NCBI GenBank assembly: GCA_030044385.1
Contig: JASHVV010000383.1
Coordinates: forward strand, 1-35,073
Source of the DNA: Gammaproteobacteria bacterium
GTDB lineage: Bacteria > Pseudomonadota > Gammaproteobacteria > Steroidobacterales > Steroidobacteraceae
DNA length: 35,073 nucleotides
Direction of reading: 5' to 3'
Of the stretch, positions 3,960 to 23,895 are shown piece after piece (positions within the stretch are counted from its first letter, which is position 1; the number at the start of each line of letters is the position of its first letter). Under the pieces are notes generated by a model. That model worked only from the letters and a program-made list of their open reading frames with translations, was not told where the DNA came from and searched no databases. The translations under genes were made by a program, and so were the position numbers.

Positions 3960-3966
3960 ACCCAGC

Positions 3967-4029: not shown

Positions 4030-4055
4030 GCCCATTGGAAGTCGCTCGAGCGCGG

Positions 4056-8315: not shown

Positions 8316-8966
8316 ATGAGTCCCACCATTACGGCCTTTGAGCAGTCGCCCGATCGTGGCAGAGGACTGGCGCGCGACATGCGCGTTCGCTGGGCGCTCG
8401 AGGAGGTGGGCCAGCCTTACAACGTCCGTCTGCTTTCGTTCGCAGCGATGAGGGAGCCCGCGCATCTCGCGCTGCATCCCTTCGGGCAGATTCCGACCTA
8501 TGAAGAAGACGATCTCGCCTTGTTCGAGTCGGGTTCGATCGTGCTCCACATCGCGCAGCGCCACGGGGGCCTGTTGCCGGCTGGGGCGAATGCCCGGGCG
8601 CGCGCGATCACCTGGATGTTTGCCGCCCTCAACACGGTGGAGCCCCCGATCGTGGATCTTCAGATCGCCAGGATCATGGAGGGCGACCAGCCGTGGTACG
8701 AGCAGCGACTGCCTCTCGTGCAGGCGCGCCTGCACAAGCGGCTGGGCGAGCTTTCCGGTTGCCTGGGGCATGCCGACTGGCTCGACGGCGCGTTCAGCGC
8801 CGGTGACCTGCTGATGGTATCCGTGCTGCTCAGAGCGAAAGCAGCGGGCATCCTGAGCGAGCATCCGAAGCTTGCCGCCTACGTGGCCCGAGGCGAAGCG
8901 CGGCCCGCCTACAAGCGGGCTTTCGACGCTCAACTGGCAGTCTTCACTGCCGCGTCGGCCCGCTGA
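8316..8966 (+). CDS. Glutathione S-transferase family protein
   Basis: A 216-residue protein with ATG at 8316 and CGGAG 6-10 bases before it. The N-terminal half is a thioredoxin-like GST domain: RVRWALEEVGQPYNV, the cis-proline region PFGQIPTYEEDD, and LFESGSIVLHIAQRHG (glutathione-binding ES motif). The second half is the all-helical domain, with SAGDLLMVSVLLRA matching the N-capping motif. It probably acts in the cytoplasm on electrophiles or peroxides; the substrate cannot be told. The 3' end overlaps the convergent cutC gene by 23 bases. No functional link to either neighbour is evident. Confidence 0.88.
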   Translation: MSPTITAFEQSPDRGRGLARDMRVRWALEEVGQPYNVRLLSFAAMREPAHLALHPFGQIPTYEEDDLALFESGSIVLHIAQRHGGLLPAGANARARAITWMFAALNTVEPPIVDLQIARIMEGDQPWYEQRLPLVQARLHKRLGELSGCLGHADWLDGAFSAGDLLMVSVLLRAKAAGILSEHPKLAAYVARGEARPAYKRAFDAQLAVFTAASAR

Positions 8967-9705
8967 CGAGGGCCTCCGCTGCGCGCAGCTCGTCCACGAG
9001 TCGCCGCACCGCTTCCGGGTCGGTCTGCCGCCAGTCGGCATCGAGCCCACGCAACGCAGCAGCTCGCGGGCTCGCCGGGGATGTTCGCCGTGCCGACGCC
9101 GAGGCGTGGATCTCGCACACCCCGGTCGCCGCTACGAGCTGCCTCACGTTCTCCGGGCGGACCCCGGCTGCGGCGATGACGCCGATCCGTCCGGCCGCCT
9201 GACGTAACACCGCGGCGATGGCCGCGGCACCTTCCGGCGCGCTGGAATGCGCGCCGGAGGTCAGAACACGCTCGCACCCGAGCCCGATGAGCGCTTCGAG
9301 CGCGGGCTGCCGATCGCGCACCACATCGAAGGCCCGATGGAAGGTGATCGACATCGGTCCCGCTGCCGCGATGAGGCTGCGACACACTGCCAGGTCGACG
9401 TCCCCCGCCGTATCGAGCGCGCCGATCACGACCCCATGGCAGCCGAGGCGGGCGCACTCCTCGATGTCGTATTGCATGACCCGGATCTCGGCCTGCGAAT
9501 AACAGAAGTCTCCGGCGCGCGGCCGGATCAGCACGTGCAAGGGCAGGGTGAGCCCGGCGCGCGCTGCGGCAATGGTCCCGCGTGAGGGCGTGACGCCCCC
9601 GCCGGCGAGGTCGGCGCACAACTCGACCCGATCCGCGCCGCCGCGCTGCGCGGCGAACGCGGAGCCGATCCCGTCGGCAGCAATCTCGAGCAGCAGCCGT
9701 GTCAC
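8944..9705 (-). CDS. cutC: CutC family protein
   Basis: A 253-residue TIM-barrel protein of normal family length. It starts with GTG at 9705, preceded by AGGAGG at 8 bases; this site overlaps the GH20 stop, which ends 12 bases before. Family patterns are clear: LLLEIAADGIGSAFAAQRGGADRVELC, GGGVTPSRGTI, HVLIRPRAGDFCYS, GCHGVVIGAL, ITFHRAFDVV and GCERVLTSGA. CutC was named from copper sensitivity in E. coli, but a direct copper role is doubtful. Here it is the last gene of a five-gene sugar operon (LacI, PfkB, AGE, GH20, CutC), which suggests a part in glycan or GlcNAc-derived metabolism. That is an inference from position. Confidence 0.92.
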   Translation of the reverse strand: MTRLLLEIAADGIGSAFAAQRGGADRVELCADLAGGGVTPSRGTIAAARAGLTLPLHVLIRPRAGDFCYSQAEIRVMQYDIEECARLGCHGVVIGALDTAGDVDLAVCRSLIAAAGPMSITFHRAFDVVRDRQPALEALIGLGCERVLTSGAHSSAPEGAAAIAAVLRQAAGRIGVIAAAGVRPENVRQLVAATGVCEIHASASARRTSPASPRAAALRGLDADWRQTDPEAVRRLVDELRAAEALVSGPTRQ

Positions 9706-9717
9706 GCGTGGGCCTCC

Positions 9718-11331
9718 TCAGCGCGGCGAGGTGTCGGGGTGCGATCCCAACCGCGCGCTCAGGTCTTCGAACTGCGCATAGGTGGGCTCCGGATTGGGCG
9801 ATCCCCACAGACGCTGCGCCAGCACACGCAGCGGCTGCGCGATGCGCCCCGCGATGTAGGTCTGCGTCTCATACCCCACGTTGTCGCACCATACGTTCAG
9901 CATGCTTCCCAGGTTGCGCGCGTGGTTGCTGGCCCGGATCGTCAGACCCTTCTGGAAGATATCGGGTTGCCAGACCCCGTAAACCCAGGGCAGGTCCGGA
10001 GTCCGGCCGTTGCCCGTGCCGTAGCCGGTCACATAGTACGTCGGGTCCCAGCTCTCGTTGGCGATGAGATGGCCCGCATCGACGATCTGCTGCGGCGTGG
10101 GCCCATAAGTCATCCAGTAATCGACCACGATGTCCGGATTGACGGTGACTGCCGCGCCCCCGCCGAGGCCGTCGTTCCAGATGCGCAGGGTCTTGCCGGC
10201 GGCGCGCACCTGCGTGTCCGCCCAGTTGATGAAGCCGAGGAAGGTGTCCTTGGCATTGGCCCCAGGGCCGTAATGAGTGCGAGCGTAAGCGAGGAGCTGC
10301 GGGTCTTTCGCATAGTCCGTGAGGTACTCGTCGGCGCCGAGGTGCCAGTAGGGTCCGGGGAAGAGCGGCAGGTACTCCTGCAGCAGGTCGCGCATCAGCT
10401 CGTAGGACTGCGGATTGGAGAGATCGATCAGACCATAGTTCGGGCTGTCCGGCGTCGGCGCCGTGTGGGCGGAGTCATAGAGCTGCAGCTGCGGGTGCGC
10501 GGCGAGAATCGCCGCCATGTGCCCCGGCATGTCGATCTCCGGAATCACCATGACGTGGCGCGCCGCGGCGAAGGCGATGATGTCCCGGACCTGCTGCTTG
10601 GTCAGATGCTCGCGCGAGACGATCTCGGGGTGCGAGGTGCTTTCGAGGCGGAAGCCGTTGTTGTCGGAGAGGTGCAGGTGCAGGGTGTTCAGCTTGAGGT
10701 AAGCCATCTCCGCGATCTCTTCGCGCAGCCACGAGGGCGTGAAGAACTTGCGGCCGTAGTCGACACCCAGTCCGCGCTCCGGCTTCAGCGGCCAGTCTCG
10801 TGCGACGCCGTACGGCAACTGTTGGCTCTCGCGCAGCAGCTGCAGCACCGTCTGGGTGCCGTAGAACACCCCAGCGTCAGTTCCCGCAGTAATGCAGAGG
10901 TGCTCGCCGATGCTGAGCGAATACGCCTCAGGGCCGGACGCCGCGGACGGCAGAGGCGCGCCTGCGGCTGCGCCGGCACCTGCACCCGGCTGGAGGGTGA
11001 GATAGATGTCACCGGGCTGGGCTTCGGCCTCGCTGCCGATGACCTGGGGGAAGTCGCGGTTGAAGAGCGCGCCGAGGCTGGCGGCGAGGAGCCGGCTCGT
11101 CGTCGCGAGCACGCCGGCCGCCTGCGGGGAGCGGACGATGCGCGTGTGGTCGCCGAGCTGAAACTCACCCTGTGCTTGCGGGTGCCACTGCTGCACCGCC
11201 GGGATGGTCGCCGGCAGCAGCGGCTGCTCGCGCTGCGGACTCACCTGACAGGCCGAGAGCAACGTCAGCGCGGCGGCCGCCGTCACGCGCAGCGCCGCGC
11301 GGGCCCCCTTCGAAACCTCCAGATCGATCAT
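9718..11331 (-). CDS. GH20 beta-N-acetylhexosaminidase, predicted lipoprotein
   Basis: A 537-residue enzyme with ATG at 11331 and GGGAG 8 bases before. Residues 1-28 form a lipoprotein signal ending in the lipobox LLSAC (C28), so it is likely held in the periplasm or outer membrane. A GH20b N-domain (to about 180) is followed by the barrel: RGLGVDYGRKFFTP, LNTLHLHLSDNNGFRLES and VIPEIDMPGHMAA. The catalytic pair is D334-E335 in HLGADEY, where the Asp orients the substrate acetamido group and the Glu is the acid/base. The substrate-binding Trp region (YGVWQPD) follows. It should remove non-reducing GlcNAc from N-glycan antennae. It lies 16 bases after the AGE-family gene, in the same operon. 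Confidence 0.93.
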   Translation of the reverse strand: MIDLEVSKGARAALRVTAAAALTLLSACQVSPQREQPLLPATIPAVQQWHPQAQGEFQLGDHTRIVRSPQAAGVLATTSRLLAASLGALFNRDFPQVIGSEAEAQPGDIYLTLQPGAGAGAAAGAPLPSAASGPEAYSLSIGEHLCITAGTDAGVFYGTQTVLQLLRESQQLPYGVARDWPLKPERGLGVDYGRKFFTPSWLREEIAEMAYLKLNTLHLHLSDNNGFRLESTSHPEIVSREHLTKQQVRDIIAFAAARHVMVIPEIDMPGHMAAILAAHPQLQLYDSAHTAPTPDSPNYGLIDLSNPQSYELMRDLLQEYLPLFPGPYWHLGADEYLTDYAKDPQLLAYARTHYGPGANAKDTFLGFINWADTQVRAAGKTLRIWNDGLGGGAAVTVNPDIVVDYWMTYGPTPQQIVDAGHLIANESWDPTYYVTGYGTGNGRTPDLPWVYGVWQPDIFQKGLTIRASNHARNLGSMLNVWCDNVGYETQTYIAGRIAQPLRVLAQRLWGSPNPEPTYAQFEDLSARLGSHPDTSPR

Positions 11332-11347
11332 TCACTCGTCTCCCATG

Positions 11348-12601
11348 TCAACGTGTCGCCGTCGTGCGCACGACGCCGAGCACCTCGTAGCAGGCGCCCA
11401 TCGTGTGGTAGTCGGTCTTGCCCGCCGGACTCTTCTCGTCGTTGTACTTGACGTTGGCGACATCGAGGATGCGGAACCAGCCGCCGTAGCGATGGTCGAC
11501 GAAGTGCTCCCAGGCGTAACTCCACAGGCGGTCGTACCACTCCCAGTAGCGGCGCTCGCCGGTTCGAGCCGCCAGCAGCGCCGCGGCGGCCAGCGATTCC
11601 GCCTGTACCCAGAAGTACTTGTCGGCGTCGCAGACGAACATTGCGCCATCACCGATCGCAGCACCTTCCATCCCCGCCGCCCGCAACCGCTGCGGCGCGA
11701 AGCCGTAGTGCATGCCACCGTGGACACTGTCCCAGGAATATCCGAGCGCGCGGTCGAAGAGCCCGCACGCCGTGGGCAGCAGCCAGTCCGCGTCCACGTA
11801 TCGCCCGAGAATGAGCAGCAGCTTCGCCCATTCCGTCTGATGTCCCGGCTGGAAGCCCCAAGGCCGGAACAGGTGGCGTGGGTTATCGAGGTTATAGCGC
11901 CAGTCGACGCGCCAGTCCGCGTCGTAATGCTCCCACACCAGCCCATCCGCGAGCCGTGCCTGGCGGCGCGTCATGTGGTCGGCGAGCAGCAGCGCACGTT
12001 CGAGGTAGCGCGGCTCGCTGCTCGCGGCGAAGGCGGCGAGCAACGCCTCGCACATGTGCATGTTGGCGTTCTGGCCGCGATAGCGGCTGAATTTCCAGTG
12101 AACGTCGGCCTCATCGCGATACAGCCCAGCGGCGCCGTCGAAGAAGTAGCGCTCCAGCAACGCCCAGAGCTCATCGAGCCAGGCGCGCGCCTCGGCGATA
12201 CCGGCGTGCAGCGCGTGCGCGTAGGCGAGGAGCACGAACGCAAGGCCATAGCAGTGGCGGGTCGTGTCCTCGACCGCTCCGTCATGTAGTGTCCAGGCAT
12301 AACCGCCGCTTGCGGCGTCGCGGTGAACTCCGCGCAGGTAGCGCAGGCCGTGATGCACAGCGTCGAGATAGGCCGGATCGCCGAACTCCCGATACGCCAT
12401 CGCGTAATCGAAGATGAAGCGGGCGCTGCTCACCAGGTGCCGGTGGCGGCGGTCGTAGATCGTGCCGTCGTCCTTGAAATAATGAAAGAAGCCACCGGCC
12501 GGGTCGATGCAGCGCGGATGGTAGAAGGCCATGGTGTGCGCGATGTGCGCGCGCAGGAACGCCGGCGAGCGGAAATCCGCTCTCGCTGCCGGGCTCGTCA
12601 C
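11348..12601 (-). CDS. AGE-family mannose isomerase / N-acylglucosamine 2-epimerase
   Basis: A 417-residue (alpha/alpha)6-barrel protein. It starts with GTG at 12601, 9 bases after the PfkB stop, with GAGAG as a modest ribosome site. AGE-superfamily markers are present: HLVSSARFIFDYAMAYR, RGQNANMHMCEALLAAF (181-186 region), FQPGHQTEWAKLL (H254), GGMHYGF, the late GGWFR motif and KTDYHTMGACYE. It has no signal peptide, so it is cytoplasmic. The family includes AGE, cellobiose epimerase, YihS and mannose isomerase. A sugar kinase next door and an alpha-mannosidase across the promoter favour mannose to fructose isomerisation, but N-acylglucosamine/N-acylmannosamine epimerisation stays possible. 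Confidence 0.88.
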   Translation of the reverse strand: MTSPAARADFRSPAFLRAHIAHTMAFYHPRCIDPAGGFFHYFKDDGTIYDRRHRHLVSSARFIFDYAMAYREFGDPAYLDAVHHGLRYLRGVHRDAASGGYAWTLHDGAVEDTTRHCYGLAFVLLAYAHALHAGIAEARAWLDELWALLERYFFDGAAGLYRDEADVHWKFSRYRGQNANMHMCEALLAAFAASSEPRYLERALLLADHMTRRQARLADGLVWEHYDADWRVDWRYNLDNPRHLFRPWGFQPGHQTEWAKLLLILGRYVDADWLLPTACGLFDRALGYSWDSVHGGMHYGFAPQRLRAAGMEGAAIGDGAMFVCDADKYFWVQAESLAAAALLAARTGERRYWEWYDRLWSYAWEHFVDHRYGGWFRILDVANVKYNDEKSPAGKTDYHTMGACYEVLGVVRTTATR

Positions 12602-12610
12602 ACCCGGCTC

Positions 12611-13603
12611 TCAGGCAGCGCGGCCATGCTGCTGCTCCGTCAGAAGCTGCTCGACCTCGGCGCGCGAAGGCATGGCCTCGAAGGCGCCCTTGCGCGTCAC
12701 CGCGAGCGCCCCGGTCGCCGCGCCGAAGCGCAGCGCGCTCTCGAGCGCGGACGATTCGGCGAGGAACGCATCGAGGCCGGCAGTGCCCACGCCACGCCTC
12801 GCAAGCTCGCTCAACAGTCCGCCGACGAACGCATCGCCGGCGGCCGTGGTATCGGTCGGGCGAACTTTGAAGCTCGGCAGCTCACCGCGCGCCGCGCGCG
12901 TGTGCCACCGCAGCGGCGCGCCGCCGTGAGTGATCACGACGAGCCGGGCGCACGCACCCAACAGCCGGCCGACCACCGCCGCCTCGCCACCGAGCGGGTG
13001 GGCGAGAAATTCGAGCTCGTTGTGCGCCAGCTTGACCAGATCGGCCCCCTCCAGCATCCGCCACAGGCTCGGTGTCGGGTCGGAGCCCGTCGGCCACAAT
13101 CCGGACCTCAGGTTCAGGTCCACGCTGACCAACGCCTGGGCTGCGCGGGCGCGGCGCATGCCTTCCAGAGTGGAGGCGGCGCTCTGCGCCTCCGTCAGGC
13201 TGTTGGAACAGACGTGGAACACCGCCGCCTCGGTGAAAGCCTGGTCGCGGAAGTAGGCCTCGCGGAACAGGAGGTCTGCCGCCGGCGGCCGGTAGAAACT
13301 GAAGCGTCGCTCGCCGGCCGCGCCGAGGCTGACGAAGGCGAGTGCCGTGCGCGCCTCCCCGGTGCGCGTCACGTACTGCGTGCCGACGCCGGCTGCGCAC
13401 AGGCTGTCGAGCAGAAAATCGCCGAACACGTCGCTGCCGAGCATGCCGATGAATTCACTGCGCGCGCCGAGGCGCGCCGCAGCCACGGCGACGTTGGCCG
13501 GCGCGCCCCCTGCGAACTGCAGGAACGCCGGCGGCGCTCCCGCCGTCCCCGGCTCCTCCAGGAAGTCGATCAGAGCCTCGCCGAAGCAGCATATTTTTTT
13601 CAT
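12611..13603 (-). CDS. PfkB-family sugar kinase, probable fructokinase
   Basis: A 330-residue ribokinase-fold kinase with ATG at 13603; no strong Shine-Dalgarno sequence is seen. The PfkB N-terminal signature is at residues 31-46 (AGGAPANVAVAAARLG). The C-terminal signature is DTTAAGDAFVGG, with the catalytic base D257 in the AAGD anion hole. LVSVDLNLRSGLW and KLAHNELEFL are typical of fructokinases. The probable reaction is fructose plus ATP to fructose-6-phosphate, which takes the product of the neighbouring mannose isomerase into glycolysis. The gene follows the LacI-type regulator by 46 bases and precedes the AGE gene by 9. Confidence 0.9.
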   Translation of the reverse strand: MKKICCFGEALIDFLEEPGTAGAPPAFLQFAGGAPANVAVAAARLGARSEFIGMLGSDVFGDFLLDSLCAAGVGTQYVTRTGEARTALAFVSLGAAGERRFSFYRPPAADLLFREAYFRDQAFTEAAVFHVCSNSLTEAQSAASTLEGMRRARAAQALVSVDLNLRSGLWPTGSDPTPSLWRMLEGADLVKLAHNELEFLAHPLGGEAAVVGRLLGACARLVVITHGGAPLRWHTRAARGELPSFKVRPTDTTAAGDAFVGGLLSELARRGVGTAGLDAFLAESSALESALRFGAATGALAVTRKGAFEAMPSRAEVEQLLTEQQHGRAA

Positions 13604-13649
13604 ATCGGGGCTTTCGCGGGCACGCGTGTCGGATGACGGACGCGACCGG

Positions 13650-14729
13650 TCATCTCCCTCCGTTCCGTGTCGTATGCCGCAGAGGCCGGTGCCGGCCGGT
13701 GCTCTGCCGCACGACCAGGGTCACCGGCGCAATCGTGCGCACCGTCCGCGCCGGCGGATGCTGCGCCCCGGCGAGCGCGAGCGCCGCGGCCTGGCGGCCG
13801 CGGCCGCGCGGGTCGGAAGCCAGCGTAGTCAGTGGCGGCATGCTCGCCGAGGCTTCCGGAATGTCGTCGAACCCCGTGACCGAGAAATCGTGCCCGGGGC
13901 GCAGCCCACGCTGCACGAGCCCGAGCAGCAGCCCCAGTGCCACCGCATCGTTGTAGGCCACGGCGGCCGTTGGCGCCGGGTCGCGCACGAACAGCGCGTC
14001 GGTCTGTGCACACGCCTGCAGGCGTGTCGGCGCACTCTCGATGATCCAGTGCGGCTCCGGCGTGATGCCGGCGGCGGCGAGCGCCTCGCGATGGCCGACG
14101 CGCCGCTCCCGGCAGGAGCTCGACTCGCCATGGCCGCCGAAGAACGCGATGCGCCGATGACCGAGCGACAGCAGGTGCTCGGTGGCGAGAAAGGCACCGC
14201 GACGGTTGTCGAGACCGAGAAAGTCCCAGGTCGGCGTCACGGGGTCGCGCGAGCTCAGCTCGCGGTTGAAAACCAGCAGCGGCGTGTGCGCGCCGACGGT
14301 GCGCTGCACCACGAGGGCATCGCTGCCCTCGGCCGGTGAGAGAATGATTGCCGCCGGGTCGTGCTCCATGAGTGAAGTGAGCACCGCCTGCTGGCGCTCG
14401 GCCGACTCGCTGGTGCTGCCGAGCAGGGTGACATAACCGGCGGCGCCCAACGCCTCGTCCACCCCGGCGGCGAATTCGGCGAAGAACGGGTTCGCCAGGT
14501 CGTTGATGACCAGCGCGACGTTGGAGGAGTGCTGGCGCCGGAGATTGGCGGCGACGCGGTTGTAGACGTATCCCATGCGACGCATGTGCTCGAGCACGGT
14601 GGCACGCGTCTCGGGATGCACGAGCGGGCTCTCGCGCAGCACCAGCGACACCGTCGCTCTGGAAACGCGCGCCGCGCGGGCGACGTCGTTCAGGGTGACT
14701 CGGCGGCGGCTGGCAATTCTCTGGATCAT
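13650..14729 (-). CDS. LacI-family transcriptional regulator of the glycan locus
   Basis: A 359-residue repressor with ATG at 14729. The N-terminal DNA-binding domain (VTLNDVARAARVSRATVSLVL, then a hinge near residues 48-65 ending NLRRQHSS) is standard. The remaining two-lobed periplasmic-binding-like domain (VALVINDLANPFFAEFAAGV, GHRRIAFFGG, AVAYNDAVALGLLLGL, VTGFDDIPEA) binds the inducer, probably a sugar from the imported glycan. It is the first gene of the operon with PfkB, AGE, GH20 and CutC. One copy of the proposed operator lies 10 bases upstream of its start, so autoregulation is likely. The C-terminal 15-20 residues are basic and variable. Confidence 0.93.
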   Translation of the reverse strand: MIQRIASRRRVTLNDVARAARVSRATVSLVLRESPLVHPETRATVLEHMRRMGYVYNRVAANLRRQHSSNVALVINDLANPFFAEFAAGVDEALGAAGYVTLLGSTSESAERQQAVLTSLMEHDPAAIILSPAEGSDALVVQRTVGAHTPLLVFNRELSSRDPVTPTWDFLGLDNRRGAFLATEHLLSLGHRRIAFFGGHGESSSCRERRVGHREALAAAGITPEPHWIIESAPTRLQACAQTDALFVRDPAPTAAVAYNDAVALGLLLGLVQRGLRPGHDFSVTGFDDIPEASASMPPLTTLASDPRGRGRQAAALALAGAQHPPARTVRTIAPVTLVVRQSTGRHRPLRHTTRNGGR

Positions 14730-14739
14730 ATCGGCGTGG

Positions 14740-14755
14740 CTTAGAACGATCCAAA
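14740..14755. promoter_or_regulatory. Proposed LacI-type operator O1
   Basis: CTTAGAACGATCCAAA matches the palindrome TTTAGATCGATCTAAA in 13 of 16 bases and keeps the central CG usual for LacI-family operators. It sits just before the regulator's own start codon, where it could block the minus-strand operon. Confidence 0.65.
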
Positions 14756-14833
14756 ATTCTGCCCCATTTTGGTCCGCTTGTCATCGCGGTCATGGGTGAC
14801 GGCGTGAGCATCTTGCAATTGGATACGGTTGAT

Positions 14834-14849
14834 ATTAGAACGATACAAA
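14834..14849. promoter_or_regulatory. Proposed LacI-type operator O2
   Basis: ATTAGAACGATACAAA matches the same palindrome in 12 of 16 bases, 27 bases before the GH92 start. It overlaps a possible plus-strand promoter (TTGGAT at 14819-14824, 17-base spacer, GATACA at 14842-14847). O1 and O2 are 94 bases apart, so looping between the divergent promoters is possible. Confidence 0.6.
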
Positions 14850-14876
14850 TAAATCACTGCAAAGCTGAGGGGATTC

Positions 14877-17351
14877 ATGGGCGCCGACCCTGTGTGCCGC
14901 CGGCCGGGCTACGTCCGGCGGCGGGCTGCGATGGTCATGACCGCGTGTGCCGCTGTGTCCGCCGCGGCGCTTGCCGGCCAGGGCGAGCCCGCGCGCGATC
15001 TGGCGCGCACGGTCAACACTTTCATCGGCACCGGGGATGGCGGCAACACCTTCCCGGGCGCCGACGCTCCCTTCGGCATGATCCAGGTGAGTCCGGTAGG
15101 CGCCTACTATTCGGGCTGGCAGTACGACGACCCGACCATCCGGGGCTTCGGGCACTCGTTCCTCTCGGGCGCCGGCTGCTCGGGACAGGGCGGCCAGCTG
15201 GCGGTGCTGCCGGTGACCGGGCGCATCGGTTCCGGCGGCGCATTCGCCGCACCCGGGTCCTTCGATTACCGCAAGTATGCCGCCCATTACACTCACGCGG
15301 GCGAAGTCGGCCAGGCGGGTTACTACCGCGTGCACCTTACGTCCTATGGTGGCATCGACGCAGAAGCGACGGCGTTGACGCGCGCCGCCGCCGAGCGCTA
15401 CCGGTTTGCCGCGGGCTCTCGTGAAGGGACGTTGCTGGTCAACACAGGCCAAGCGGACAAGGACCATACCGTTGTCGGCAGCGTCCTCAAGATTGTCGGC
15501 GATCGCGTCATTGAGGGCCGAATCACGACCCACAGCTTCTGCGGTGGCCAGGCCTACACCACCTGGTTCCGGATGAAGTTTGATCGGCCGTTCCGCGCCT
15601 TTGGCACCCTCGATGCGGATGGAGCACACCCCGGCAACCGCAGAAGCGGCCAGGACGATGGCCAACCCAATGGAGCCTGGCTCACCTTCGATCTCGGCAA
15701 GGACCGCGCGGTCACCGCGATCAGCGCGCTATCGCTCGTCGATGCCGCAGGCGCGCGGCTCAACCTGCGCGCCGAGGGCGAGCGCGACGGCCACCTGCTT
15801 TCCTTCGACGCCATGCGGGCGCTGGCGCAGGGCGCGTGGCGGCGAGAGCTCGGCACGGTGCGTATCGAGGCGGCGAACGCCGACGACGCGACGGTTTTTT
15901 ACACTGCGCTGTACCACGCACTGCTGCAGCCGCTCACGGCGAGCGACGCCGACGGCCGCTACCGCGGCTACGACACCGAGGTCCACCGTGCCGATGGCTG
16001 GACCTATTACGACTACTTCTCGCTGTGGGACACCTACCGGTCGCAGAACCAGTTGCTCGCGCTGCTGCGGCCGTCGCGGGCGCGCGATATCGCGCGCACG
16101 ATGCTCGCGATTCAGGCGCAGAACGGCTGGCTGCCGCGGTGGGGCTACGCCGACTTCGACACCAACGTCATGACCGGGGATCCGGTGACGCCGTGGCTCA
16201 CGGACCTTTGGCGCTTCGGCGACCTGAAGGGTGAGGAGCGGGAGGCCTACGCGGCGCTGCGCCAGAACGCCTTCGGCGTGCCGCCCTTCGCCTCGCGCAG
16301 CCAGGGCCGCGCGGGCAATCCCAACTACCTCGCACACGGCTTCGTACAGTACGACCCCGCGTTCTCGCCGAAGGGCATGGACTCCGATCCGCAGCATGCG
16401 GCCTCGGCGACCCTGGAGTACGCCACGGCGGACTGCGCTCTGGCGCAGCTGGCGCAGGCGGTCGGCGAGCGGGCGGACGCGCAGGTGTTGCGCGCCCGCG
16501 GCGGCAACTGGCGCAAAGTGTGGGACCCGGCCGTGGTCGACGCTCCGACCGGCTTCCGCGGCTTCCCGAGGCCGCGGCTCGCCGACGGCGGCTGGTTCCA
16601 GGATCCGGGAGGCGGTTACAGCCCGCGCTCCCAATACGGCTTCCACGAGGGCACGGCGTGGCAGTATCAATGGCTCGTGCAGCAGGACGTGCCGGGCCTC
16701 GTCGCCGCGCTCGGCGGCCGCGACAGCGCGCTGCGCAGGCTCGACACGTTTTTCGCCTACGACGAGCTGCTCAAGGACCCGCTGCACGCGGCAAGCCGCA
16801 GCTGGGTGAGCGGCACCTACAGCTATTACGATCAGTACCGTTACAACCCGGAGAACGAGCCGGACATTCAGGTGCCGTGGATGTACGCGCTCATGGGCGC
16901 ACCATGGAAGACCTCGGCCGTCGTGCGCGCCGCCGAGGCGCTATATACCAACGCGCCCGGCGGCATTACCGGCAACGACGACCTCGGCACCATGTCCGCC
17001 TGGTACGTCTTCGCCGCCCTCGGCTTCTACCCGATGGAGCCCGGCAGCGGCCGCTTCGTGCTGAACGCGCCGAGATTCCGCCAGGCCGCGATCACCCTGG
17101 AGAGCGGCCGGGTGCTCGAGATCGACGCACCGCGCGCGAACGCCGCCCGGCTCCAGTACATCGACGGGGTGCGGCTCGGCGGCCGGCCCGACCCGCGCGT
17201 CTGGCTGGACTTCGAGCAGCTGAATGCCGGCGGCCGGCTCGAATACCGCCTGACGGGCACGCCGCCCGAGCACGGCTGGGGCACGTCGTCCGCGGATCTT
17301 CCGCCTGCGCTGTGCCCGACCGATTCGCGTGGTGCTGGCGCAACACGTTGA
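14877..17351 (+). CDS. GH92 alpha-mannosidase, secreted
   Basis: An 824-residue enzyme with ATG at 14877, preceded closely by GAGGGG. An RRR-plus-hydrophobic stretch (residues 14-34) is an export signal; the mature part begins near QGEPARDL. The GH92 N-domain signature (FIGTGDGGNTFPGADAPFGM) is at 49-68. In the catalytic (alpha/alpha)6 domain the expected acid is E591 in FHEGTAWQYQW, and the base Asp pair is D701/D702 in GNDDLGTMSAWYVF. NEPDIQVPWMY provides further conserved contacts. GH92 enzymes are calcium-dependent, inverting exo-alpha-mannosidases, mostly alpha-1,2 or alpha-1,3. It should remove mannose from released N-glycans. The gene is divergent from the LacI-type operon and is followed after 109 bases by the receptor gene. 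Confidence 0.95.
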   Translation: MGADPVCRRPGYVRRRAAMVMTACAAVSAAALAGQGEPARDLARTVNTFIGTGDGGNTFPGADAPFGMIQVSPVGAYYSGWQYDDPTIRGFGHSFLSGAGCSGQGGQLAVLPVTGRIGSGGAFAAPGSFDYRKYAAHYTHAGEVGQAGYYRVHLTSYGGIDAEATALTRAAAERYRFAAGSREGTLLVNTGQADKDHTVVGSVLKIVGDRVIEGRITTHSFCGGQAYTTWFRMKFDRPFRAFGTLDADGAHPGNRRSGQDDGQPNGAWLTFDLGKDRAVTAISALSLVDAAGARLNLRAEGERDGHLLSFDAMRALAQGAWRRELGTVRIEAANADDATVFYTALYHALLQPLTASDADGRYRGYDTEVHRADGWTYYDYFSLWDTYRSQNQLLALLRPSRARDIARTMLAIQAQNGWLPRWGYADFDTNVMTGDPVTPWLTDLWRFGDLKGEEREAYAALRQNAFGVPPFASRSQGRAGNPNYLAHGFVQYDPAFSPKGMDSDPQHAASATLEYATADCALAQLAQAVGERADAQVLRARGGNWRKVWDPAVVDAPTGFRGFPRPRLADGGWFQDPGGGYSPRSQYGFHEGTAWQYQWLVQQDVPGLVAALGGRDSALRRLDTFFAYDELLKDPLHAASRSWVSGTYSYYDQYRYNPENEPDIQVPWMYALMGAPWKTSAVVRAAEALYTNAPGGITGNDDLGTMSAWYVFAALGFYPMEPGSGRFVLNAPRFRQAAITLESGRVLEIDAPRANAARLQYIDGVRLGGRPDPRVWLDFEQLNAGGRLEYRLTGTPPEHGWGTSSADLPPALCPTDSRGAGATR

Positions 17352-17375
17352 CGGCGCCGGTGCGACGCGTTAAGG

Positions 17376-17391
17376 TTTAGATCGATCTATC
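17376..17391. promoter_or_regulatory. Proposed LacI-type operator O3
   Basis: TTTAGATCGATCTATC contains the perfect 12-base palindrome TAGATCGATCTA (17378-17389) and matches O4 in 14 of 16 bases. It lies in the GH92-receptor gap, 52 bases centre to centre from O4, close to five helical turns, which suits repression by a looped tetramer or co-operative dimers. Confidence 0.75.
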
Positions 17392-17427
17392 TGGAAGCTC
17401 CAAGTCGCTTGCGAACTCGTGAGATCA

Positions 17428-17443
17428 TTTAGATCGATCTAAA
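17428..17443. promoter_or_regulatory. Proposed LacI-type operator O4
   Basis: TTTAGATCGATCTAAA is a perfect 16-base palindrome with central CG, 17 bases before the receptor start codon. It is the best copy of the motif in the window. TTGCGA at 17409-17414 could be a -35 element with the -10 inside the operator, but this promoter assignment is weak. Confidence 0.8.
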
Positions 17444-17460
17444 AACAGGGGGAATTGCCG

Positions 17461-20415
17461 ATGATCAAGTCCGTGTGGCTCAAGGGCGCTCTGGCCGCAG
17501 GTCTCGCGCTCAGCTTGTCCGTGCCCGTTTTCGCGGCCACTGCGGCCAGCCCGGCCGCCGCGCAGAGCAAGGCCGTCAGCAAGAAGGCCAAGGCCATCAG
17601 GGTCGCGCAGGCCCAGACGGTGCAAAATCCCCCGCAGCCGCAGTCGCCCCCGCAGCTCGAGACCGTGACGGTCACCGGCTCCCGCATCGCGCGCAAGAAC
17701 CTCCAAGGGCCCTCTCCGGTCACCATCATCACCGGGCAGGAGATCAAGGCTGAAGGCTTCACCACCCTCTACGAGGTGATGGACGACACCACTCAGTCGT
17801 TCCCCGTGCAGACGCCGCCGAGCTGGGGCAGCACCAACGTCAATGCGCGCCAGTTCAACATGTACGGCCTGGGTCCCAACCACTCGCTCCTGCTGATCGA
17901 CGGCATGCGCGTCCCGGACTACCCCCAGCCTCAGCAGTGCTGCTACGGTGCTCAGGACAACTTCCAGAACTACAACAACATTCCGACCGGGATGATCGAT
18001 CGGGTCGAGATCCTGGACAGCGGCGGATCGGCGATTTACGGCTCGGATGCGGTCGCGGGCGTCGTCAACGTCATCCTCAAGCACCACTACAACGGTGACG
18101 ACGTCGTTGCCCGCGGCGGCGCCGCGTCGCGCGGCGGCCGCGACTACTCGGATTTCGAGTGGACCGGCGGCAAGGGCGGCGACACCTGGAGCGTGGTCTA
18201 CAACTTCCAGGCGATGCAGCGCAGCGCGCTGTGGGGTTACCAGCGTCCCTATACGGATGCCGACTCGGATGCCGGCTACGGCACCTGGAATTCCACGGAC
18301 CGAACGTACGGCTACCAGAGCTATCCGGGTGCGGAGCTCACCAATCTCGATGGCGACTACATCACGCCTCCTGCAGGATCCTGTACGGCGTTCGGCAACG
18401 AATTCCGGCTACAAAACAGCCCGTCGGGCTACTACTGCGCGCAGAACGCCCTCTTTGAGCACTGGGTGCTGACGCCCGGACGCAAGGATCTCAATGGCTA
18501 CGTCCGCGGGGAGCTCGATCTCCCCCACGGCATGCAGGCCTACGTGGCCCTGGGCATGTGGCACACGGTGGGCATCTCGAACACGGAGCTCCCCTTCCTC
18601 TACCAGAGCGGCTCGTACGGCGGCGCCGTTCCCGGCCTGCCCGCCTCCAGCGGCAACGCCTACCCGGACCCGACGGGTCCCTTCTACGACCAGACGACAG
18701 GGCAGGTGATCACCGGCTATCTCCGTCAGCTGACGGCCGCCGAGATGGGCACGAGCGGCAACACCTACGATACCGAGCTCGACACGGACTTCAAGATCGG
18801 CCTGAAGGGCAAGATATTCGACCGCTTCGACTGGGATCTCACGTGGGGCCGCGCGCTCTACTGGGTGGATGAGAACTACACCGCTCTCGACGAGACGGCG
18901 ATGTTCAACTTCTTCTTCGGCCCCAATCTCGGGCCGACCACGGTCAACGGTGTCACGTACAACACCTACGCGCTCAACGCCGCGCGGTTCTGGGGTCCGA
19001 TCACGCCGTCCGAGTACGACAGCTTTGCGGAGTACGGCGAGAATCGCGACACCTCGTGGATCGATCAGGGGCAGGGGACCATCACCGGCACGCTGTTCAA
19101 CGACTGGGCGGGACCGGTGGGTTTCGCGGCGGTGGGCAGCGTGGCGGAGCAGGGGTTCATGGAGTACCCGGACGCCCAGGGGCTGACCACGTCATTCCAG
19201 AATCCATTCCAGGAATACAACACCGGCGGCGGGCGGCGCACCCATGGAGCGGTCGGACTGGAATTCCGCGTGCCGCTGCTCAAGTCGATCACCGCCACGC
19301 TGGCCGGCCGATCCGACCGGTACAACGAGGAAGGCCCTTCCCTCACGGCCAATACCTTTGAGACCGGACTGGAGTGGCGGCCGATGCGCAACCTGCTGGT
19401 GCGCGGCAGTCTGGGCACCAGCTTCCATGCTCCGGACATGGTCGACATCTATCCGCAGACGTCGGTGCAGGCGGTGGGCATATACGATGACCCTTACGAG
19501 TGCATCGTCGCCAAGGACTTCAACTGTCCGGCCACGCAGCACAACACTTACTTCAACGTCTACAGCGGGGCCAATCCGGCGCTGCAACCGGAAACGGGCA
19601 GGAGCTTCACTTACGGCGTCGCCTGGGATCCGCAAACCGAGCAGGGCTTCTCCGGGTCCATAGACTACGTTCATATCGTCCTCGCCAACGAGATCGAGGT
19701 GCTGACATACAGCCAGATCCTCACCGACGAGGCCGGGTGTCTGACGGGGCTGCAGCTCGACGGCGCGCCGTACACCGCGCACGCGCCGGGCTCGGCGTAT
19801 TGCGATGAGGTGATCGCGGCGGTCCACCGCAACAGCACCGGGCAGATTACGTCGATCGACGCGGGCGCGATCAACGAGGCCATGACCAAGATCAGCGCCG
19901 TCAACGCGCAGGCGGATTACCGCTGGATGTGGGACAACATAGGCAGGTTCGACTTTCACCTGAACTACACCCTGAACGTGAGCTTCCAGCAGCAGACCGT
20001 GGCCACGGACCCGCTGACGAACCTCGCGTACGAGAACCCCAAGAGCAAGATGAACGCCAACCTCACCTGGAGCCGCGGGCCCTGGGCCGCGACGCTCTGG
20101 GGCCAGCGCATCGGTGGCGTGCAGCAGCCCGGCTACTATTCGTGCGCGAACTCGGAGGGCACGTACGGTCCCCCGCCGTGCGCCGCCGGCACCTCGCTCT
20201 TCCTGGGCCACAGCACGCCCTGGGTCACGATGAACGTCTCTACGTCATACAACATCACCCAGGCGCTGAAAGTCGGCGCTTACGTGAGCAACGTATTCAA
20301 TCGTGTCGGCAATATCCCGTATTACGCGGGTGGCTTCGAGTTCATCCAGACCAACGCCGGCCAGGACTACGTCGGCCGGGAGTGGTCACTGGAGATCGAT
20401 TACAAGATCGACTGA
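17461..20415 (+). CDS. TonB-dependent outer-membrane receptor (probable glycan importer)
   Basis: A 984-residue receptor. The ATG at 17461 follows GGGGGA; a TTG six bases earlier is less likely. Residues 1-35 form a signal peptide. A TonB-box-like stretch (LETVTVTGSRIARKN) precedes the plug: PSPVTIITGQEIKAEGF, NMYGLGPNHSLLLIDGMRVP, MIDRVEILDSGGSAIYGSDAVAGVVNVIL. The remaining 700 residues are the barrel, ending in the terminal aromatic strand WSLEIDYKID. There is no SusD-like partner, as usual for the CUT-type receptors of Xanthomonas and Caulobacter. Two LacI-type operators and its place between the alpha-mannosidase and the PNGase suggest it imports N-glycan pieces. The substrate is inferred from neighbours only. 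Confidence 0.93.
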   Translation: MIKSVWLKGALAAGLALSLSVPVFAATAASPAAAQSKAVSKKAKAIRVAQAQTVQNPPQPQSPPQLETVTVTGSRIARKNLQGPSPVTIITGQEIKAEGFTTLYEVMDDTTQSFPVQTPPSWGSTNVNARQFNMYGLGPNHSLLLIDGMRVPDYPQPQQCCYGAQDNFQNYNNIPTGMIDRVEILDSGGSAIYGSDAVAGVVNVILKHHYNGDDVVARGGAASRGGRDYSDFEWTGGKGGDTWSVVYNFQAMQRSALWGYQRPYTDADSDAGYGTWNSTDRTYGYQSYPGAELTNLDGDYITPPAGSCTAFGNEFRLQNSPSGYYCAQNALFEHWVLTPGRKDLNGYVRGELDLPHGMQAYVALGMWHTVGISNTELPFLYQSGSYGGAVPGLPASSGNAYPDPTGPFYDQTTGQVITGYLRQLTAAEMGTSGNTYDTELDTDFKIGLKGKIFDRFDWDLTWGRALYWVDENYTALDETAMFNFFFGPNLGPTTVNGVTYNTYALNAARFWGPITPSEYDSFAEYGENRDTSWIDQGQGTITGTLFNDWAGPVGFAAVGSVAEQGFMEYPDAQGLTTSFQNPFQEYNTGGGRRTHGAVGLEFRVPLLKSITATLAGRSDRYNEEGPSLTANTFETGLEWRPMRNLLVRGSLGTSFHAPDMVDIYPQTSVQAVGIYDDPYECIVAKDFNCPATQHNTYFNVYSGANPALQPETGRSFTYGVAWDPQTEQGFSGSIDYVHIVLANEIEVLTYSQILTDEAGCLTGLQLDGAPYTAHAPGSAYCDEVIAAVHRNSTGQITSIDAGAINEAMTKISAVNAQADYRWMWDNIGRFDFHLNYTLNVSFQQQTVATDPLTNLAYENPKSKMNANLTWSRGPWAATLWGQRIGGVQQPGYYSCANSEGTYGPPPCAAGTSLFLGHSTPWVTMNVSTSYNITQALKVGAYVSNVFNRVGNIPYYAGGFEFIQTNAGQDYVGREWSLEIDYKID

Positions 20416-20453
20416 CCGGAATGACACAACGACCCCAGATGAAGGAGTCCTCC

Positions 20454-22337
20454 ATGAAGTCTTCGCCGTTCTCCGCAACCGCGCTTGTCGCGGCCGCCTC
20501 GCTGTTTGCGCTGGCGGCGGCCCCCGCCGTCCGGGCGCAGCAGCTCACCATCGGCTCGCCGAATGTGGCCGTGGCCGATCCCGTCGTGCCGCTCCCGCCG
20601 ACCAAGTCCTGCGTGGTGACGCTCTACACCAACGAGTCCTTCCCGACCGTCACACCCACGAGCACGCTGCCCCTGTGGGACGGCAGCAATCATCCCTTCA
20701 CTTATACGCCGCCCGCCGCCTGCCCGGGTCCATGGGAGAAGGTGGTGTACAGCGCCGACTTCAGCGTCAATGCCGGTGTGGCGTACGATCGTACGGCGAT
20801 CGTGTGGCTCGGCGGCGCGGTGATCTTCCTGGGCACGACCGAGGAGCCGAACCAGCTGCAGACTGCTTCGTGGCACATCAACCGCGACATCACCGATTAC
20901 AGCTCACTCCTCACGCAGGCCCAGAGCGGGTACATCAACCTCAGCAACTGGTACGACCCCAACGGCGCCCTCGGCGTCGGCCCCCTGACCGGCATCTACC
21001 ATGCCTCTGCGCAGCTCCTTTTTTATCCGGCGCCGGGTAACCCGCAGGGCAACCGGAATGGGCCCCGGAACGGCGGGCAGGCAGGTCTCATCCCCCGCCC
21101 GGATCAGGTGCTGAACCTGGAGGCGAACAGCCTCGATGAGCTCTCGACCCCGAGCCAGCAGCTCGCCGCGACGCTCACGTTGCCGACCAACATCGAGCGG
21201 GCCTTCCTCGACGTCTACGCACAGAACCAGTCGGGCGAGGAGTTCTTCTTCTTCGACGTGGCGGACCAGAACGTCGCCAGCGCATTCGAAGACACGTACG
21301 CCTCGCCCTACAAGGAGGCGGAGGTCACGATCGACGGCCAGCCGGCCGGGATCGCGCCCGCCTATCCCTGGATCTTCACCGGGGGCGGCGATCCGATTCT
21401 GTGGCAGCCGATTCCCGGCGTTCAGACCCTGGACTTGCAGCCTTACCGCGTCGATCTGACCCCCTTCGTCGGCCTGTTGGACAACGGCAAGCCGCATACC
21501 ATCGCCGTCAACGTCAACGGGCTGGACGCGACGAATTCCACCGGGTACTTCCAGACGGCGGCATCTCTGCTCCTGTACCTGGACCACGGCGGCAGCCGCG
21601 TCACAGGTCAGGTCACCGAAGACACGCTGCAGGCCACCCCGGTGGTGAACACCGACGACCAGGTGACGACCACCTCCGACGGCTCGATCAGCGGGCCGCT
21701 GTCGGTGACCTCCAGCCGCGAGTTCACGATTACGGGAACGGCCAATACCTCGCATGGCACGGTGACGACGAGCATCCATGAGAGCATGTCGTTCTCGAAT
21801 GTGCAGCAGTTCACCCTGGTGGCCTCCACCGGAGCCAACACGCAGGACGCGGTGCAGGACACCAAGGTCGACAAGACGACCACGATCACGACAGGCCGCG
21901 GGCCAGCCGTGGTGCTGCACGAGTTTCGCGACTACCCGTTGACGTTCAACTACGACGTCCCGGTGTATCCCAACGGCTCCTTCGCTCTGGATACTTTCGC
22001 GAACCAGGAGTTCGAGCAGCAGGTGGACATCGGCGACGGCTGGAACATGATGACCGCGCAGCTCGATAACCACCGGCTCGCGACCGCGACGCGCAATCCC
22101 TATCCCACCCCGGCGGCGCCCACAAACTCGTCGCAGAGCTACACGTACTCGGCGCCGTTCGGCGCGTGCTACAGCCGCACCATTACCTCGGCCCTGGGGA
22201 CCTCCTGGCCCTCGGACCTCACGAGTGTGACGGACGGAGTCGGCTGTCCGGGCCGTGTCAACGCACTCAGCTGGAATGACGAGTTCTCCGACCTCGCTTC
22301 CCGGGAGTTCGGTGCGACCGTCCAGCTGTTGCCTTAG
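20454..22337 (+). CDS. Secreted peptide-N-glycosidase A (PNGase A) family amidase
   Basis: A 627-residue protein with ATG at 20454 and GGAG 8-9 bases before it. Residues 1-28 are a signal peptide (cut near VRA-QQ). The pattern of the plant/fungal PNGase A family is recognisable in order: YDRTAIVWLGGAVIFLGTTE (111-130), a WHINRDITDYSSLL section, IERAFLDVYAQ with EEFFFFDVADQN (248-273), YKEAEVTIDGQPAG (286-299), and the hallmark WIFTGGGDPILWQPIPG (306-322) followed by YRVDLTPFVGLL. Family enzymes hydrolyse the GlcNAc-Asn amide bond and, in almond PNGase A, accept core alpha-1,3-fucose. It starts 38 bases after the receptor stop, so both are probably co-transcribed. It would release N-glycans from glycoproteins outside the cell. 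Activity is inferred. Confidence 0.85.
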   Translation: MKSSPFSATALVAAASLFALAAAPAVRAQQLTIGSPNVAVADPVVPLPPTKSCVVTLYTNESFPTVTPTSTLPLWDGSNHPFTYTPPAACPGPWEKVVYSADFSVNAGVAYDRTAIVWLGGAVIFLGTTEEPNQLQTASWHINRDITDYSSLLTQAQSGYINLSNWYDPNGALGVGPLTGIYHASAQLLFYPAPGNPQGNRNGPRNGGQAGLIPRPDQVLNLEANSLDELSTPSQQLAATLTLPTNIERAFLDVYAQNQSGEEFFFFDVADQNVASAFEDTYASPYKEAEVTIDGQPAGIAPAYPWIFTGGGDPILWQPIPGVQTLDLQPYRVDLTPFVGLLDNGKPHTIAVNVNGLDATNSTGYFQTAASLLLYLDHGGSRVTGQVTEDTLQATPVVNTDDQVTTTSDGSISGPLSVTSSREFTITGTANTSHGTVTTSIHESMSFSNVQQFTLVASTGANTQDAVQDTKVDKTTTITTGRGPAVVLHEFRDYPLTFNYDVPVYPNGSFALDTFANQEFEQQVDIGDGWNMMTAQLDNHRLATATRNPYPTPAAPTNSSQSYTYSAPFGACYSRTITSALGTSWPSDLTSVTDGVGCPGRVNALSWNDEFSDLASREFGATVQLLP

Positions 22338-22387
22338 TGAAGAGCAGGGTGGTGCCGCGCCAGCGCGCGCAGCGCCGCCTGCCGGAG

Positions 22388-22421
22388 CCGGCGGGCCCTA
22401 CCTCACCCCGGGGCCCGCCGG
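22388..22421. terminator. GC-rich hairpin between convergent PNGase and fucosidase genes
   Basis: CCGGCGGGCCC (22388-22398) and GGGCCCGCCGG (22411-22421) are perfect 11-base inverted arms with a 12-base loop. The hairpin lies in the 100-base gap between two convergent stops and could end transcription from both sides. There is no T tract, so it is not a classical intrinsic terminator. Confidence 0.45.
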
Positions 22422-22437
22422 AACCGGCGGCGGATCG

Positions 22438-23895
22438 TCACGACTCGGTGCCGCGGTACAGTCCGACCGACGCCAGACGCGGCGGTCCATAGGCGAATTC
22501 GATCGCGAGCCGCAGCTCCCGCGCGGTGACCGGCGGGAATCGATCGAGCTTCCGGCAGCCGATGGTCGTGCCCCAGGTCACCGTGCGCCACTCGCCCGCT
22601 GGGGTGCGGTACTCGAGCCGATAGCCGGCGATCTGCTGGCCGAGCGCAATGGCCTCCTGGAGACGCAGCGTGTCGAATTCGACGGGCCGGGACAACTCGA
22701 ACGCGAGCCAGCCGCGGCTCTCGTCCGAGGCGGTGGCCCAGTAGGTGTCGGGGTCATTGTCGAGCACCGCCGCCGGCGCGTGCCCCGGAGCGGCGCTGCT
22801 GGCCTGCACGCTCGCCTCCTGCAGGCGGTTGACCGCCAGCAGGCTCTCGCGGAGGTGCGCAAAATCGCGAAGCGAGCGCACGTCCGTCCGGTCGAGCACG
22901 CCCGCTCGCGTCGGCGGCACGTTGAGCAGCAGCTTGCTGTTGTGTCCCACCGAGCTCAGGTACAGCGCGAGCAGATCGTCACCGGTTTTGACCTGCGAGT
23001 CCTGCGCGGCATGCCAGAACCAGCCGGGGCGGATCGAGACGTCGGACTCCGCGGGGCGCCAGACGCTGCCGCGCGGGTCGCCCATGCCGAGGACCTGTTC
23101 CGCATCCACTGCGGTGTAGCCGGGGTACTTGACGCGCTCCGGGTCGAACGATCCCCAGCAGGTGACCGGCGCGGCGCCGTGCTCCTCGCCCACCCAGCGC
23201 ACATCCGGTCCCGCGTCGGAGAAGATTATCGCGCCGGGCTGCAGCCGGCGCACGGTCCGCCAGATCCGCGGCCAGTCGTAAGTCTGGTGCGTTGCGGTGG
23301 GACTCCTGGCGCCGTCGAACCAGATCTCGGTGAGCGGGCCGTAGTTTTTGCACAGCTCGGTCAGCTGTGCGATGTAGTAGTCGTTGTAGGCCTCGCCGGA
23401 GCCGTAGCTCGGCGCGTGGCGATCCCAAGGCGACAGGTACAGTCCGGCGCCGAGACCTTCGGCGCGGCACGCCGCCGTGAACTCCGCCACCACGTCCCCG
23501 TGGCCGCCGCGATACGGGCTCGAGCGCACCGAATACGGCGTGGTGGCGGTCGGCCACAGGCAAAAGCCGTCGTGGTGCTTGGCGGTCAGGATCATGGCGC
23601 GGAAGCCCGTCGCGCGCGCGGTGCGCGCCCATTGCTCGGCGTCGAGGCCGGACGGATTGAACAGCGCCGGCGAGGCTCGTCCGTCGCCCCACTCCTGATC
23701 GGTGAAGGTGTTCATCGAGAAATGCACGAACATCGCCAACTCCGCGCGTTGCCAGGCGAGCTGCCCGGCGCTCGGCAGCGGCGGGCCGCCGGCGTGCGGC
23801 GCGTTCCCGCGTACGCGCGCCCCCGCCGTGCGCGCGAGGCCGCCTGCGGCAACCGCTGCCGTGCCGGTGGTGAGCAGCGCGCGCCGCGTGATCAT
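22438..23895 (-). CDS. GH29 alpha-L-fucosidase, secreted, with C-terminal F5/8C-like domain
   Basis: A 485-residue enzyme. The ATG at 23895 has GGAG 7 bases before it and opens an export signal (MITRRALLTTGTAAVAAGG; the RR suggests Tat but is not decisive). GH29 motifs are clear: ELAMFVHFSMNTFTDQEWG, ILTAKHHDGFCLWPT (about 102-116), AGLYLSPWDRH, and EIWFDGAR, whose D194 is the expected nucleophile. About 140 C-terminal residues resemble a discoidin/F5-8 type C domain (AVLDNDPDTYWATASD...GWLAFEL). This layout fits the GH29-B type, often specific for alpha-1,3/1,4-linked fucose, which would suit plant N-glycans. It faces the PNGase gene; no copy of the LacI-type operator was seen before it. Confidence 0.92.
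   Translation of the reverse strand: MITRRALLTTGTAAVAAGGLARTAGARVRGNAPHAGGPPLPSAGQLAWQRAELAMFVHFSMNTFTDQEWGDGRASPALFNPSGLDAEQWARTARATGFRAMILTAKHHDGFCLWPTATTPYSVRSSPYRGGHGDVVAEFTAACRAEGLGAGLYLSPWDRHAPSYGSGEAYNDYYIAQLTELCKNYGPLTEIWFDGARSPTATHQTYDWPRIWRTVRRLQPGAIIFSDAGPDVRWVGEEHGAAPVTCWGSFDPERVKYPGYTAVDAEQVLGMGDPRGSVWRPAESDVSIRPGWFWHAAQDSQVKTGDDLLALYLSSVGHNSKLLLNVPPTRAGVLDRTDVRSLRDFAHLRESLLAVNRLQEASVQASSAAPGHAPAAVLDNDPDTYWATASDESRGWLAFELSRPVEFDTLRLQEAIALGQQIAGYRLEYRTPAGEWRTVTWGTTIGCRKLDRFPPVTARELRLAIEFAYGPPRLASVGLYRGTES

Follow-up and report, generated by a model that had tools for sequence, protein, structure and literature searches.

A LacI-linked locus carrying a PNGase A-family peptide N-glycanase in a Steroidobacteraceae genome: a probable regulon for N-glycan release, import and mannose catabolism

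The stretch of DNA analysed here (the window) is the 35,073-nucleotide contig JASHVV010000383.1 (C62), positions 1 to 35,073, of GCA_030044385.1, a metagenome-assembled genome (MAG) of a gammaproteobacterium of the family Steroidobacteraceae; the MAG comprises 3.28 Mb in 441 contigs and is 82% complete and 5.6% contaminated. The subject is a group of predicted glycan-utilisation genes at 8944-23895. An initial annotation, made from the sequence alone, had described this group as a complete plant-type N-glycan utilisation locus in one LacI-linked block. Gene families were called with Pfam at its curated cut-offs over 23 open reading frames (ORFs) of the window, and all of the families named earlier were matched in that span far above their cut-offs. 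Start codons were refined to 17461 for the TonB receptor, 20454 for PNGase A, where an AAGGAG Shine-Dalgarno sequence sets the start, and 23895 for GH29. The features of the locus are as follows.

8944-9705, minus strand: CutC-family protein (Pfam CutC 235.8 bits; CutC relatives in the PDB at E 7.5e-56)
9718-11331, minus strand: GH20, predicted exo-beta-N-acetylhexosaminidase (Pfam 165.7 bits, cut-off 22.3; lipoprotein by eye, LLSAC)
11348-12601, minus strand: AGE-family isomerase, probably a D-mannose isomerase (Pfam 372.5 bits; closest PDB chains 3gt5 and 5x32)
12611-13603, minus strand: PfkB kinase, probably a fructokinase (closest PDB entry 3ljs, 'Fructokinase', E 8e-109)
13650-14729, minus strand: LacI-family repressor (Pfam LacI and Peripla_BP_3)
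14740-14755: operator-like site CTTAGAACGATCCAAA, 10 bases before lacI (three mismatches to the palindrome; core with one mismatch)
14834-14849: operator-like site ATTAGAACGATACAAA, weaker (four mismatches), 27 bases ahead of GH92
14877-17351, plus strand: GH92 alpha-mannosidase (Pfam 470.1 bits, cut-off 24.6; signal peptide by eye; closest PDB entries 7zgm and 6f8z)
17376-17391: operator-like site TTTAGATCGATCTATC (two mismatches to the palindrome)
17428-17443: perfect operator-like palindrome TTTAGATCGATCTAAA, 16 bases, 17 bases before the TonB receptor
17461-20415, plus strand: TonB-dependent outer-membrane receptor (Pfam)
20454-22337, plus strand: PNGase A-family peptide N-glycanase (Pfam PNGaseA 165.7 bits, cut-off 25.3; signal peptide by eye)
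22438-23895, minus strand: GH29 alpha-L-fucosidase (Pfam 126.1 bits, cut-off 25.2; Tat-type signal by eye)

The genes lacI-pfkB-AGE-GH20-cutC are separated by gaps of 9-46 bases, with cutC as the last gene of the run, 12 bases from GH20. On the other side, PNGase A starts 38 bases past the receptor gene, without an operator-like site of its own. The perfect palindrome TTTAGATCGATCTAAA shares the GH92-receptor gap with the two-mismatch copy, and the lacI-GH92 gap holds the three-mismatch and the four-mismatch copies. All four operator-like sites of the window sit in gaps of the locus; at up to three mismatches three were found against 0.02 expected, and at up to four mismatches the 16-mer occurs four times, where 40 Markov samples yielded 0.2 on average and never more than 1. 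A scan of the whole MAG located the 14-base core TTAGAWCGATCTAA, with at most one mismatch, at three of these sites and nowhere else; its reversed control is not found at all. Given the short gaps and the site counts relative to the Markov samples, the grouping of the locus is not due to chance.

For comparison, a class sample of 369 genomes and an order sample of 296 genomes (295 besides our own) were used, the MAG itself being counted in both. Four of the genes occur together in G594 (locus L081) and G486 (locus L082), two genomes of one genus that belongs to a family other than that of the window, with identities of 62-64% for LacI, 64-65% for GH92, 62-63% for PfkB and 72-73% for AGE. The palindrome, at up to three mismatches, has four sites in L082, which holds a one-mismatch copy of TTTAGATCGATCTAAA, and two in L081; copies precede GH92 in both loci and the receptor in G486. 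A three-mismatch site also lies before a TonB receptor on the cutC side of G594 (L129). The related LacI and the common palindrome are consistent with a LacI-type mannoside regulon like that of L081 and L082. The palindrome is common to the gaps, its core at up to one mismatch occurs only here in the MAG, and copies precede GH92 in two genomes from a different family. A single regulon comprising lacI-pfkB-isomerase-GH20-cutC, GH92 and receptor-PNGase A is therefore probable, which lends backing to the earlier notion of an N-glycan-directed, LacI-linked block. GH29 does lie within the span of that block; its membership of the unit is not supported, since it is convergent and has no operator-like site upstream within four mismatches, and it was set aside as a neighbour. 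The GH78-like gene at 25561-28323 (plus strand; weak alpha-L-rhamnosidase domains, lipoprotein by eye) has no operator-like site and was also rejected as a regulon member.

The mannose-directed genes make up the part of the locus that is conserved in these relatives. GH92 contains both of its domains (PF07971 and PF17678), and EGTAWQY and GNDDLGTMSAWY, which we take to be the catalytic motifs of the family, align with the solved enzymes. The AGE-family isomerase aligns with 5x32 at 487 bits, an entry listed as N-acylglucosamine 2-epimerase and, we presume, a mannose isomerase. Together with the PfkB kinase it probably serves a route from mannose through fructose to fructose-6-phosphate. Twelve genomes of the class sample, our own included, have an AGE match at E <1e-100, and in five of the 11 others PfkB and GH92 lie in the fetched neighbourhood; three of these five are genomes beyond G594 and G486, two of them from one genus. 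The L081 and L082 loci include an MFS permease and a GH2 gene, with GH47 in G486, while the G594 contig ends soon after. A tblastn search found no PNGase A at either locus. In the order sample, 20 of 296 genomes match GH92 at E 1e-30 (19 besides our own), the best other match being 40% identical; with no closer relative of GH92 than this among the 295 others, horizontal transfer is likely. The GH92 genes of these congeners were considered as the same locus and rejected: among 20 neighbourhoods, only L060 (PfkB and AGE) and L056 (a weak PfkB) hold a locus gene besides GH92. Seven of the 20 neighbourhoods also match part of a gene of the window at 3831-8168 (plus strand), whose 1445-residue product combines molybdopterin oxidoreductase, flavodoxin, FAD and NAD domains and resembles a fused assimilatory nitrate reductase; a pair consisting of an M56 peptidase (BlaR1-like) and a BlaI-type repressor adjoins it at 1447-3678 on the minus strand.

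The assignment of PNGase A rests on a match to PF12222 that spans positions 33-332 of the 336-position profile, accompanied by a marginal PNGase_A_C match (28.0 bits, cut-off 27.9), and among solved structures a single relative was found, PDB 9vla, 'PNGase Bb' (E 9.7e-42). The family is present in one of the 369 class-sample genomes, the MAG itself, and in eight of the 296 order-sample genomes, every one from the genus of the window, for which 23 genomes are listed; a contig scan also found relatives of 39% identity in two unclassified Pseudomonadota MAGs. The congeners' seven copies (L011-L017) fall into two sequence groups that are about 40% identical to each other, and several adjoin ORFs that we take, by their sequence, to be ispF-like or otherwise of housekeeping type. 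These copies do not represent the same locus: when 20 window proteins were searched, all seven 20-kb neighbourhoods, as well as L009 (3.7 kb) and L010, shared PNGase A only. Published work, cited here and below from excerpts of the papers, describes bacterial PNGase A homologues from Xanthomonas theicola, Dyella and Frateuria among others, and six of 13 homologues assayed (Tr, Xt, Ac, Ka, Ft and Dj) were clearly active on horseradish peroxidase (PMC7348039). Because bacterial homologues have already been described and assayed there, the family is not new. The view that a PNGase A-type releasing enzyme is unusual does not hold for the family. As to its wiring, no report of PNGase A within a LacI/TonB locus was found in the literature searched, and a position inside a regulon of this kind may be new. 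AlphaFold gave models of low confidence for PNGase A (three sequences; predicted local distance difference test, pLDDT, 36) and for CutC alone (pLDDT 49), and neither was used.

Plant Lewis a antennae carry Gal-beta-1,3-GlcNAc, and the three nearest solved relatives of GH20 are lacto-N-biosidases. GH20 has the catalytic DE pair, and Arg, His and Asp align with Gln190, Glu216 and Asn259 of LnbB (numbering by hand), which constitute the substrate-binding set of that lacto-N-biosidase (PMC9016705, PMC4449183). A lacto-N-biosidase function was rejected on this comparison, the active-site residues being of the exo-hexosaminidase type. The best solved relatives of GH29 are 8ayr and 4zrx, and the third is 3ues, 'Alpha-1,3/4-fucosidase'. 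A longer GH29 ORF, to 24057, overlaps a Phd/YefM-type antitoxin ORF (23987-24235, plus strand), beside which no toxin gene was identified. Next comes a type II/IV secretion ATPase gene (PilT-like) on the opposite strand, and a HipA-type kinase gene lies beside an MmyB-like HTH regulator gene at 28331-30850 (minus strand), in a stretch of lower GC.

CutC occurs in seven of the 369 class-sample genomes at E 1e-20: our own, G594, G486, G470 and three of the genus g116. In G594 (L129) and G486 (L130), the start of cutC lies within the stop codon of an Asparaginase_2 (glycosylasparaginase-type) gene, and a glucokinase-type gene precedes this pair in G486. In G594, cutC is followed by the TonB receptor mentioned above, which is 37% identical to that of the window over a 940-column alignment, and then by a heavy-metal P-type ATPase gene. 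No relative of this receptor was seen beside cutC in G486, and the receptor adjoining GH92 in L082 is not meaningfully similar to that of the window. The distance from cutC to the AGE locus is about 1.75 Mb on one contig in G486, and in G594 the two lie on different contigs. The window thus joins parts that were found separately in these genomes. Each of the three genomes in which this LacI regulon was found has cutC, a gene that is rare in the class sample, and in two of them it overlaps a glycosylasparaginase-type gene. PNGase A may replace a route of endoglycosidase plus glycosylasparaginase; the substrate of CutC would then be something that both routes yield, for instance an intermediate derived from GlcNAc or mannose. 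It is nevertheless doubtful that CutC, whose name refers to copper, functions in these bacteria as an enzyme dedicated to breaking down N-glycans. The P-type ATPase near cutC in G594 speaks against it, keeping a copper role possible, as do the four other cutC genomes, in which no match to window proteins was found near cutC except PilT in G470.

One of the closest described systems is the nix N-glycan cluster of Xanthomonas, which likewise brings together a TonB receptor, a fucosidase, a beta-hexosaminidase, an alpha-mannosidase and cutC in one region (PMC5700972, PMC6718126); in the window, too, cutC and the TonB receptor lie with the glycosidases. The two differ in that nix has the beta-mannosidase NixH, the beta-glucosidase-related NixI, NixF, a glycosyl hydrolase acting between GlcNAc residues, and the beta-galactosidase NixL (PMC5700972, PMC6718126), whereas no beta-mannosidase, NixI-type glycosidase or beta-galactosidase lies in the window locus. 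The window block in turn has a mannose isomerase, a fructokinase and LacI, and the nix genes described in the excerpts do not include PNGase A. The most promising lead from this locus is the occurrence of cutC next to a glycosylasparaginase-type gene in two related genomes, and within nix as published. The GH92-LacI-MFS-PfkB-AGE-GH2 locus of G594 and G486 shares four genes and the palindrome with the window; it has MFS and GH2 (and GH47 beside L082), which the window lacks, whereas the window adds GH20, CutC and PNGase A, and lacI and GH92 run in the same direction there and divergently here. The plant N-glycan pathway of Bacteroides massiliensis follows a similar logic of a PNGase, a GH92 alpha-1,3-mannosidase and GH29, but its PNGase belongs with PNGase F/EMTypeII, and locus tags place this PNGase beside GH92 and the remaining enzymes elsewhere (PMC9522356). 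The PNGase H+ homologues of Terriglobus, Dyella, Frateuria, Xanthomonas theicola and others are PNGase A homologues like that of the window (PMC4231336, PMC7348039); they are described as tool enzymes with no regulon context in the excerpts, and the words 'operon' and 'cluster' do not occur in PMC4231336.

Among the 23 ORFs, Pfam identified no sugar transporter, ENGase, beta-mannosidase, or GlcNAc or fucose catabolic gene, and the gaps listed in the initial annotation are borne out. Six GH3 matches, GH3 being the family to which we assume NixI belongs, lie on other contigs; ORFs were listed around five of them, and the GH3 on contig C208 resembles xylosidases, below the cut-off. Of five MFS matches in the MAG, those on C208 and C278 are GluP-type permeases and the one on C158 is a FucP that exceeds its cut-off. 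The C208 permease was rejected as the missing transporter: it adjoins GH3, galM, AraD1 and isocitrate lyase families and has no operator-like site within three mismatches, and by its neighbours it would be a general hexose or pentose candidate. Beside the C158 FucP are an aldo-keto reductase, a fuconolactonase-like amidohydrolase (below the cut-off) and an enolase-superfamily dehydratase, a neighbourhood that, judged by homology, is probably an L-fucose oxidation operon; this fucose operon, at L113:4642-10010 of the same MAG, also has an IclR regulator.

It is proposed that the locus is a compact LacI-controlled regulon for N-glycan release, import and mannose catabolism, a reading to which we give a probability of roughly 60%. 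Several observations weigh against it. The best NCBIfam match of the isomerase, to D-mannose isomerase NF051846 (E 2.4e-58), scores 198 bits, short of the cut-off of 600, and the best model for the PfkB kinase, fructokinase, is also matched below its cut-off. PNGase A is 31-43% identical to nine relatives, the congeners' seven copies included, and the other seven of the 13 homologues assayed were negligibly active (PMC7348039). Two L082 sites and one L081 site are not in gaps but fall within coding regions or right at their beginning (pfkB in both G594 and G486, and GH2 in G486). The block has no inner-membrane transporter, although L081 and L082 hold an MFS gene there. Neither GH2_N2 nor GH130 was found in the MAG, a search that did not extend to other beta-mannosidase families, ENGase, GlcNAc catabolism or glycosylasparaginase; with the gaps in the window, this leaves the word 'complete' unsupported. 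The incompleteness and contamination of the MAG count on the same side.

If the locus instead served plain alpha-mannosides, such as fungal or yeast mannoprotein or free oligomannose, PNGase A would be a recent passenger that widens the range little. The conserved core of GH92, LacI, PfkB and AGE is indeed mannose-only and is accompanied by GH2 in L081 and L082 and by GH47 beside L082, the tblastn result leaves PNGase A out of both, and the congeners' PNGase A relatives share no locus gene nearby. However, PNGase A sits immediately past the receptor, behind the perfect palindrome, GH20 lies inside the other operon, and the CutC homologues adjoin a glycosylasparaginase-type gene in L129 and L130, with a receptor homologue in L129; we therefore consider this explanation unlikely, though worth keeping in mind. 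A dedicated pathway for plant complex N-glycans, in which GH29 would remove fucose from the core or from Lewis a, would agree with the nearest relative of GH92, the plant N-glycan alpha-1,3-mannosidase 7ZGM (7ZGM and 6F8Z are both treated as alpha-1,3-mannosidases in PMC9522356), with the alpha-1,3/4-fucosidase as third-best solved relative of GH29, and with the acceptance of core alpha-1,3-fucose by PNGase A relatives (PMC4231336, PMC10154615). Yet the regulon has no xylosidase or beta-galactosidase, GH29 is convergent and without an operator-like site, GH20 lacks the lacto-N-biosidase residues for Gal-GlcNAc antennae (PMC9016705, PMC4449183), and a bacterial PNGase A relative also takes high-mannose, hybrid, complex and mammalian glycans (PMC4231336). 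'Plant-type' is thus possible as a description but not supported, and a pathway dedicated to such glycans seems improbable. That a contig join or contamination has put foreign DNA into the MAG could be argued from the 5.6% contamination and from a GH92 that is at best 40% identical to those of 295 other order genomes but 64-65% identical to those of another family. Against this, the contig carries at its right end PBP1C and A2M, whose relatives in the congeners G314 and G126 are adjacent and 64-70% identical, an argument weakened by PBP1C matches at E 1e-50 in only seven of 41 genomes of the genus, our own included; GC stays between 0.61 and 0.71 along the contig, and horizontal transfer would explain the rest. 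An artefact of this kind is highly improbable.

For the proposed N-glycan regulon, the gene families, gene order, common palindrome and relatives suggest the following scheme, in which repressor binding, the inducer, cell locations, substrates and flux are all predicted. The LacI-family repressor would bind the palindrome and keep two divergent units off, lacI-pfkB-isomerase-GH20-cutC on one side and GH92 with receptor-PNGase A on the other. Exported PNGase A would cleave the GlcNAc-Asn bond of glycopeptides, and the TonB receptor would bring the glycan (or glycopeptide) over the outer membrane, where GH92 would remove alpha-mannose and GH20 beta-GlcNAc, probably in the periplasm. Mannose would enter via an unlinked hexose permease and be converted to fructose and then to fructose-6-phosphate; the neighbouring GH29 may take off fucose, to be broken down, perhaps, by the products of the unlinked operon. 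Both the mannose module and the CutC/receptor parts would share descent with the loci of another family, presumably xanthomonad-like, and would have been joined here with PNGase A added. The locus appears to be a new arrangement of known parts. It narrows the question of CutC function to a small operon open to assay and, if the proposed reading is true, would give bacterial PNGase A homologues a natural role in glycoprotein feeding, with a defined regulator and a candidate operator.

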